Shown one piece after another: positions 15,612 through 18,024 of a stretch of 42,669 nt of DNA. The notes below the pieces were generated by a model. The model had not been told where the DNA came from, searched no databases, and was given only the letters and a program-made list of their open reading frames with translations. A program made the translations under genes and the position numbers. The stretch is from Bacteroidota bacterium (GTDB lineage Bacteria; Bacteroidota; Bacteroidia; NS11-12g; UBA955): positions 1 to 42,669 of the forward strand of contig VGGQ01000005.1 of the NCBI GenBank assembly GCA_016868535.1, given 5' to 3'. Within the stretch, counting starts at the first letter, position 1, and every line of letters begins with the position of its first letter.

Positions 15612-16334
15612 TCAATCGCCCAATCCGAATGCAAAACTAATGTAAAAGGAAGAGAATACGCTTTTGTTGAGCTGATTGCTATTTAAAATAGGCAATTTTC
15701 GGGGGAAAGCTTCCACACTTGCACCCAGCATTAACGTATTCACATCGCCACGATAGTTTCCCCACTGAAAATCAAGACCACCCTGCCAAGTGAGGCCCGG
15801 AGTTATTCGTCCTTCAGAAAAACCTTCTGAAAAGCCTGCTCTGCCTGCTATTTCGGTGGTTTTATGTATATCGGGATTGTAGCGAACATTGGTAAAATAT
15901 TCGTTACCGAAAGGATCTACCTGAAGAACCGTAACATATACAGGCCAAACATAGGCAAGTGAAACGCCGGGACCAGAGGAAAAATTCAATCCGACGGCAC
16001 GACGGTCAGTTCTTTCACTCAGTGAATATGAATAAAGCAAACCGGGGCGGAAAGTCCATACATAATTTATCTTATCTACCTTATAGGCACTGGCATTTTG
16101 AAATACTGTATTGACCACGGCCACTTCGCGTGGATGCTGAATATTGCCCGAAACCACATAATATCCGGTGGGTTTCAAGGTAGCAGATTTAAGCGACTCC
16201 ATGGTTTTGTCATTCCGAAAGGATACAGATACACCATATTTTGAGAGCCCCAGACCCAGCGATTGCCTCACATCGGACTGAGCGAACAGCGGCAATAACA
16301 CCATACCGAGAATGGAAACAAACCAGGTTCTCAT
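15612..16334 (-). CDS. Hypothetical exported protein, outer-membrane beta-barrel-like
   Basis: 240 aa with signal peptide (MRTWFVSILGMVLLPLFAQS), alternating beta-like segments and an aromatic C-terminus (FSSFYISFAFGLGD); 18 nt upstream of lipA on the same strand. Confidence 0.65.
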   Translation of the reverse strand: MRTWFVSILGMVLLPLFAQSDVRQSLGLGLSKYGVSVSFRNDKTMESLKSATLKPTGYYVVSGNIQHPREVAVVNTVFQNASAYKVDKINYVWTFRPGLLYSYSLSERTDRRAVGLNFSSGPGVSLAYVWPVYVTVLQVDPFGNEYFTNVRYNPDIHKTTEIAGRAGFSEGFSEGRITPGLTWQGGLDFQWGNYRGDVNTLMLGASVEAFPRKLPILNSNQLNKSVFSSFYISFAFGLGD

Positions 16335-16420
16335 CTACACAAAGTTAGCAGCAATCAGACGGGGTATTCCCCATTCTCAGGATAAAATGACCAATTCGTG
16401 TTTTTTGGCAATATATTATA

Positions 16421-16440
16421 CCCACTTTCACCCACTTTTA
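16421..16440 (-). promoter_or_regulatory. Candidate MraZ-box cluster, minus orientation
   Basis: Minus strand TAAAAGTGGGTGAAAGTGGG: two AAAGTGGG units at 10-bp period. Confidence 0.55.
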
Positions 16441-16448
16441 TAAATATA

Positions 16449-16478
16449 TTGTATTTACAGCCTTTTTGACTATTTTTG
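16449..16478 (+). promoter_or_regulatory. Candidate Bacteroidota promoter for the dcw operon
   Basis: TTG (16449-16451) - N19 - TATTTTTG (16471-16478), matching TTG/TAnnTTTG consensus. Confidence 0.55.
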
Positions 16479-16540
16479 CTGAATAATTAATCATCTCATT
16501 GTGAAAATAAACCGCAATAAAACCCTTTAACAAGCCGTTA

Positions 16541-16549
16541 TGTGGATAA
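16541..16549 (-). promoter_or_regulatory. Candidate DnaA box
   Basis: TGTGGATAA on +, i.e. TTATCCACA on minus: exact consensus 9-mer. Confidence 0.4.
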
Positions 16550-16559
16550 ATGGTGCTTA

Positions 16560-16589
16560 AAAAGGGTAAAAAGTGGGAAAAAGTGGGAT
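16560..16589 (+). promoter_or_regulatory. Candidate MraZ-box cluster, plus orientation
   Basis: AAAAGGGTAA-AAAGTGGGAA-AAAGTGGGAT: three tandem decamers, first degenerate, ending 36 nt before the mraZ ATG. Confidence 0.65.
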
Positions 16590-16625
16590 TTTTAGTTTTT
16601 ATTTAGCAGACGGAATTCCAAACCT

Positions 16626-17096
16626 ATGTCCGGATTGATTGGCGAGTATGTATGTAAGCTAGATGATAAAGGCAGATTGTCTTTACCATCGAGGCTTCGT
16701 GCGCAGTTTCCCGAAAGTGCGGGAAACACGCTTGTGGTCAACCGGGGATTTGAAAAGTGTCTCGTTCTGTACACCCGAGAAGACTGGTCGGAAGAGACCG
16801 GCAAACTGACTGCAGTAGATGACTTTCTGAGCCATGAAATTCGGCGATTTAAGCGCATTTTCACCAATGGTGCAAACATGGTTCAGATTGACAATGCTCA
16901 GCGGGTCCTGATTCCCAAAAAACTTTGCGAATATGCCGAGCTAACCGATGAGGTGGTGCTCAGTGCATACGGCAACAAAGTGGAAATCTGGAGTCGTTCT
17001 AATTATGAAACCGAGTTATCGGTGGATTCTGACGAACTCAGCAAGCTTGCGCAATTCTTCCATCAGCAGCAATCGGGGAACAGAAAAGAGTCATGA
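16626..17096 (+). CDS. mraZ: Division/cell wall cluster transcriptional repressor MraZ
   Basis: 156 aa; MSGLIGEYVCKLDDKGRLSLPSRLR...NRGFEKCLVLYTREDW and second SpoVT/AbrB-like repeat MVQIDNAQRVLIPKKLCEYA; first gene of the dcw cluster. Confidence 0.96.
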   Translation: MSGLIGEYVCKLDDKGRLSLPSRLRAQFPESAGNTLVVNRGFEKCLVLYTREDWSEETGKLTAVDDFLSHEIRRFKRIFTNGANMVQIDNAQRVLIPKKLCEYAELTDEVVLSAYGNKVEIWSRSNYETELSVDSDELSKLAQFFHQQQSGNRKES

Positions 17097-17121: not shown

Positions 17122-18024
17122 ATGCAAGAATACCACGTACCTGTTCTACTGAACTCCAGTGTTGACGCACTAGTGCATGACCCCAACGGGATCTATGCCG
17201 ATGCTACATTTGGTGGTGGTGGCCACTCACGTGCCATTCTGAAAAAACTATCGGCCAAAGGAAAGCTCCTGGCCTTTGATCGCGATGACGAGGCCATTGC
17301 CAATGTCCCCGACGACAAAAGATTTACGCTAATAAACCACAATTTCCGCTTTTTAAAACAATTCATACGCTATGGAAAAATGATGCCCATCTCAGGTATT
17401 CTTGCGGATCTTGGTATTTCATCATACCAGATAAACGTGGGTGAAAGAGGGTTTGCACACAGGCTGGAAGGTCCGCTGGACATGCGCATGGACAAAAAAT
17501 CAACACTCACAGCCGCTGATATCGTTAACACTTACCCTGAGGCTAAACTAAAACACATTTTTAAAATGTGGGGAGAAATCCCAAACGCCGGAAGACTTGT
17601 CGCCATGATATGTAAGGGCCGCACAGGTAAGGCCATCCGTACCACCAATCAGTTCAAGCAACTTATTGCTGCCTGCACACCCAAACACAGTCCCGCCAAA
17701 TACCTGAGCCAGGTTTACCAGGCACTGAGAATAGAAGTAAACGGAGAAATGCAGGCTCTGGAAGCATTACTAAAAGCTTCGGCAGATTGCATAGACAGCG
17801 GCGGACATCTCGTTGTCATCAGCTACCATAGCCTGGAGGACCGTATGGTGAAAAATTTTCTTCAAACCGGGAATCTTGACGGCAACAGACAAACCGACAT
17901 GTATGGCAATGTGGAACGCCCGTTTGACCCCGAACCAAACAAGGCCATTGTACCCGATGAAAATGAAATAGCATCCAACAACCGTGCTCGCAGTGCTAAA
18001 ATGAGAATAGGAGTAAAACGATGA
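17122..18024 (+). CDS. rsmH: 16S rRNA (cytosine(1402)-N(4))-methyltransferase RsmH (MraW)
   Basis: Start at 17122 (MQEYHVPVLLNSSVDALV); ADATFGGGGHSRAIL, ADLGISSYQI, LDMRMDK, ISYHSLEDRMVKNFL, NNRARSAKMRIGVKR. The ORF-track start at 16948 overlaps mraZ. Confidence 0.96.
   Translation: MQEYHVPVLLNSSVDALVHDPNGIYADATFGGGGHSRAILKKLSAKGKLLAFDRDDEAIANVPDDKRFTLINHNFRFLKQFIRYGKMMPISGILADLGISSYQINVGERGFAHRLEGPLDMRMDKKSTLTAADIVNTYPEAKLKHIFKMWGEIPNAGRLVAMICKGRTGKAIRTTNQFKQLIAACTPKHSPAKYLSQVYQALRIEVNGEMQALEALLKASADCIDSGGHLVVISYHSLEDRMVKNFLQTGNLDGNRQTDMYGNVERPFDPEPNKAIVPDENEIASNNRARSAKMRIGVKR

Follow-up and report, generated by a model that had tools for sequence, protein, structure and literature searches.

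A conserved, inverted second repeat cluster upstream of mraZ suggests a two-sided MraZ operator in a clade of uncultured Bacteroidota

Few bacterial transcription factors are as highly conserved as MraZ, a ring-forming protein. To our knowledge it is unsettled how MraZ rings engage tandem repeats and why some bacteria show a different sign of regulation from others. In the gal operon a promoter is flanked by two operators, OE at roughly -60 and OI at roughly +55, which are separated by about 114 bp, and GalR loops the DNA between them. For E. coli, Eraso et al. 2014 reportedly found the MraZ operator of the mra promoter to consist of TGGGN repeats with 5-nt spacers. In Mollicutes the MraZ site is formed by direct repeats of AAAGTG[T/G] (Fisunov et al. 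2016, as described in PMC8475190). No paper on MraZ operators in Bacteroidota, and none on a conserved second inverted MraZ cluster, was found in the literature searched, with most subscription journals lying outside that search.

Here we describe the region upstream of mraZ in the window, a stretch of 42,669 nucleotides from a Bacteroidota assembly (GCA_016868535.1, contig VGGQ01000005.1). mraZ (16626..17096, plus strand) is the first gene of the dcw cluster. Its product matched the Pfam family MraZ (PF02381) at 1.4e-26 and 92.6 bits (cut-off 23) in two stretches, the two domain copies typical of MraZ/SpoVT-AbrB-type proteins; the search over genomes likewise gave two matches, and solved MraZ structures were matched at about 3e-19. 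The gene order expected of the family follows, with mraW (rsmH; 17122..18024, plus strand; Methyltransf_5, 4e-83; start codon picked from sequence) directly after mraZ, then ftsL_2 (FtsL_2), PBP (Transpeptidase) and more dcw genes, all assigned by Pfam. On the opposite strand lies a divergent gene, here called D (15612..16334, minus strand), encoding 240 aa with a signal-peptide-like start and belonging to no Pfam family; lipA is next to it. A predicted -7 box of D, TAACTTTG, was located at 16340..16347 on the minus strand, 5 nt before the ATG, and D is near-leaderless by appearance (16332-16347). The corresponding CAAAnnTA is present upstream of the inverted cluster described below in nearly all members of the clade.

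Two opposed repeat clusters occur between D and mraZ, as the initial annotation had claimed. The upstream cluster, R (16421..16438, minus strand), reads AAAGTGGGTGAAAGTGGG and consists of two exact AAAGTGGG units with a 10-bp period, which agrees with the earlier count of two. The downstream cluster, F (16541..16589, plus strand), had been described as three decamers with the first degenerate. These units are present, the degenerate one at 16560-16569 and the exact pair, AAAGTGGGAAAAAGTGGG, at 16570-16587 (units at 16570-16577 and 16580-16587), and the cluster comprises five units of 10-11 bp in all. Relative to the last GTGGG the F units start at -41, -30, -20, -10 and 0 (window 16541-16587); among 37 clade genomes the GTGG core was invariant or near-invariant in units -41, -10 and 0 and weaker in -30 and -20. 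R and F thus share unit and period and differ in orientation. The TTG-N19-TATTTTTG promoter that had been proposed between the clusters was also found, at 16449..16478 on the plus strand (TTG at 16449-16451, TATTTTTG at 16471-16478); we refer to this predicted Bacteroidota-type promoter as P1.

Both R and F consist of tandem units with a GTGG/TGGG core and a period of about 10 bp located 5' of mraZ, and from motif, period and position we infer that they are bound by MraZ. The likeness to E. coli lies in the TGGG core, the 10-bp period and the autoregulation of dcw, which is here predicted; the E. coli operator is one cluster in a single orientation, whereas here a second, inverted cluster is present. 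With the Mollicutes operators (PMC8475190) the locus shares the unit AAAGTG(G), the direct repeats, the position in the mraZ promoter region and the near-uniqueness in the genome, but those operators form one direct-repeat series and not two opposed clusters around a predicted promoter.

The initial annotation had named frequent occurrence of the pair elsewhere in the genome as an argument against its reading, and a scan showed the pair nowhere else. The 18-bp pattern AAAGTGGG-N2-AAAGTGGG had two exact matches in the 1.9-Mb genome, R and F, and a relaxed search with WWGTGGG gave exact matches at these two positions and nowhere else. Within the window four matches were obtained with up to 3 mismatches, against 0.64 expected from shuffled sequence, and none of 100 shuffles reached four. 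Over the whole genome the same tolerance gave 25 matches to the operator pair against 43 in the backward control, so there was no excess. No additional MraZ sites beyond R and F were found in the genome-wide scan of the 1.9 Mb. The third best match of the genome, AACGTGGGTGAAAGAGGG at 17434-17451 inside mraW, has 2 mismatches, is at background level and is probably due to chance.

Conservation was followed in related genomes, nearly all of which are metagenome assemblies; the named relatives are uncultured Bacteroidota, many apparently from freshwater, judged by their sample names. A search of 70 genomes of the family detected MraZ in 61, and 60 upstream regions were retrieved. The set bearing R comprised 42 regions, the window and 41 others, from nine genera. 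For comparison we used 51 regions: 18 from four other genera of the family (19 were retrieved, and one ended at a contig end) and 33 from the wider Bacteroidota. R was located 202-210 bp before the mraZ start in 42/42 readable clade genomes, which answers the objection, raised beforehand, that the upstream cluster might not be conserved in relatives. A conserved R at the corresponding place was absent from the 51 other Bacteroidota mraZ upstream regions. A maximum-likelihood tree placed the MraZ proteins of the R-bearing genomes together in a single group (support 100/99, recovered in 100% of bootstrap trees), and the R and F sequences were 80-90% identical between genera. The usual MraZ operator layout of a single cluster in one orientation, which is not a strict requirement, is therefore departed from throughout this clade. 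The inverted second cluster is real and conserved, and would represent a new form of MraZ operator by a mechanism that is plausible but unproven.

Beyond the clade the R-P1 pattern was matched three times (L174-L176), twice in the sister family and once in g4. None of these matches was at mraZ; two fall within coding regions and the third is next to unrelated ORFs. The g4 genome (G005) carries an exact AAAGTGGGAAAAAGTGGG away from dcw (L176, 1501-1563), on a contig with unrelated small ORFs. Six family genomes without an mraZ match were considered as a test of MraZ loss, but they were uninformative, because mraW was missing too and the dcw region thus lay outside the assembly.

The spacing of the three elements was analysed in 37 clade genomes, with g2 and g11 left out. 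From the start of R to the P1 -7 box the distance was 50 or 51 bp in 37/37 genomes, from P1 to the last F unit 109-113 bp, and from R to the last F unit 160-164 bp. The stretch of about 57 bp between P1 and F had a between-genus identity of 0.496, compared with 0.466 for shuffled sequence (510 pairs), yet its length differed by less than 1 bp on average and by 4 bp at most. As the length is held while the sequence is unconserved, it is the distance, rather than the sequence, that seems to be under selection in this stretch. In the basal g11 (152-154 bp) and in g2 (151 bp) R and F are closer by about one helical turn. This is suggestive at most of a helical phasing of R and F, since only two evolutionary changes are concerned and the repeats carry a 10-bp period of their own.

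On balance we favour, with a modest lean, the reading that R and F are the halves of one MraZ autoregulatory operator around a relocated P1, with a short promoter loop. R would lie immediately before the -33 box of P1, at about -55 with respect to the predicted start, and F would occupy the 5' leader from about +60 to +105. MraZ, the product of the first gene of the operon, would bind both and feed back on P1, presumably by repression. Bound to the two inverted sites it would hold P1 in a short DNA loop of about 135 bp, measured centre to centre. The near-fixed geometry of R, P1 and F suggests such a loop, and looping fits a fixed spacing. R, having two units only, is perhaps too short for stable binding alone. 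Like OE and OI of gal, the two predicted sites flank the predicted promoter at a conserved spacing. The comparison is one of analogy and not of family membership, as protein and site are unrelated and looping, observed for GalR, is here only predicted. A two-sided inverted operator with a near-fixed spacing over nine genera provides a natural experiment on DNA bridging by MraZ.

The same geometry bears on a second reading, possible although on the unlikely side, in which R and F are two independent MraZ sites. R would then act on RNA polymerase at P1, by activation or occlusion, F would be a roadblock in the leader, and no loop would form. The R-P1 distance is the tightest of the region and places R at a classic activator position; R ends some 10 bp before the -33 box. 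In g11 R overlaps the -33 region, as the likely -7 box (TATATTCG or TAACTTCG, found by eye in the alignment) is closer by about two turns, at R+31/32. Constant R-P1 spacing by itself would equally suit an independent activator site. However, the unconserved spacer from P1 to F likewise varies in length by no more than a few bp, which independent sites would not need.

Repeats homologous to F were found 5' of mraZ across Bacteroidota, and F-type repeats about 40-60 bp before mraZ are the norm in this phylum. Outside the clade these repeats abut a -7-like box, and R and the upstream P1 are absent, unlike in the clade. A TAnnTTT[G/A] box was located 5-15 nt (mostly 8-11) past the last MraZ-like unit in 37/51 of these regions and in 0/42 clade genomes. 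Conversely, a strict upstream promoter of the form TTG-N18-21-TAnnTTTG was present in 29/42 clade genomes, in more if the -33 triplet may vary, and in 0/51 regions outside. The clade has P1 111 bp upstream, and where the outgroups have their adjacent box stands a different element, E (TTATTTAGCAG; 16599..16609, plus strand). Based on the MraZ tree and on these box counts inside and outside the clade, the promoter was probably moved from F to P1 and R was added. The clade would thereby have gained its arrangement by placing the promoter upstream of ancestral repeats, and it offers a case in which the relocation of a promoter around an old operator can be traced.

A rather unlikely alternative is that P1 and R are auxiliary and that the main dcw promoter still lies just 3' of F, where TTATTTAGCAG would serve as an altered -7 element and F would stand at the place of the -33 element. 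The frequency of the outgroup box at this place speaks in its favour, as does E itself: its TATTTAGCAG lies exactly 12 nt past the last F unit and belongs to the most conserved block. With g2 left aside, E did not vary in any clade genome (40/40), each of which also kept the 12-nt distance from F, and E is more conserved than any promoter element of the region. On the other hand, TATTTAGCAG does not match TAnnTTTG, the adjacent outgroup box is absent from the whole clade, and P1 matches in nearly every clade genome. E may be a modified core promoter or the site of another protein. TATTTAGCAGAC, taken from E, occurs once in the genome, with no enrichment elsewhere.

It had also been suggested that the upstream cluster regulates the divergent 15612-16334/lipA transcript. 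R would then control D and lipA, with MraZ as the regulator of a second operon. D homologues were found in 39 upstream regions and D stands opposite mraZ in most of the clade, so that position alone cannot assign R; the D -7 box is 54-56 bp away from R in 25 genomes. Over all genomes, however, the distance from R to the divergent -7 box varied between 41 and 85 bp, with 81-83 bp in most of the window's genus, whereas that from R to P1 hardly varied. Furthermore, in g11 (L066, L067, L068) an unrelated glycosyltransferase-like gene (named by eye; profile comparison probability 0.5%) stands in the place of D, and R is retained near mraZ. Because g11 keeps R, and because R is near-fixed to P1 and variable to D, R goes with mraZ and dcw; judged from these comparisons it belongs to this operon and is not tied to the divergent gene. 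Control of D as the function of R is accordingly improbable, although a supplementary influence on D may exist. The earlier idea that the two opposed clusters around the dcw promoter form a bipartite operator is supported by the conservation of site, orientation and spacing over nine genera, while the role for the divergent gene is weakened.

Pairing of R and F as RNA in one transcript is very improbable: the two are perfect reverse complements over AAAGTGGG-N2-AAAGTGGG, but R lies upstream of the predicted P1 start and hence outside the P1 transcript, and the spacer is unconserved. A structured leader RNA was likewise rejected, with no Rfam match and an unconserved spacer.

A DnaA-box-like sequence, TTATCCACA (TGTGGATAA on the plus strand), is present at 16541..16549 on the minus strand. 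It is ambiguous, because it overlaps the first F unit. Such a site may link dcw to replication, although part of it falls within MraZ units and the genomes compared share ancestry. We put forward tentatively, as a possibility, a wider scenario in which the dcw promoter was rebuilt: ancestral MraZ repeats by a -7-like box would have turned into an operator in the leader, an inverted MraZ site and a new promoter would have arisen upstream, MraZ rings would bridge the two sites in a promoter loop, and the DnaA box and TTATTTAGCAG would have been wired in. The motif TTWTNCACA was located within 160 bp of mraZ in 40/42 clade regions, 10/18 regions from the other genera of the family and 22/33 regions from the wider Bacteroidota, compared with 0.11, 0.05 and 0.01 expected per region, respectively. 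Its position is next to or inside the MraZ repeats; it occurs on both strands, and the N varies.
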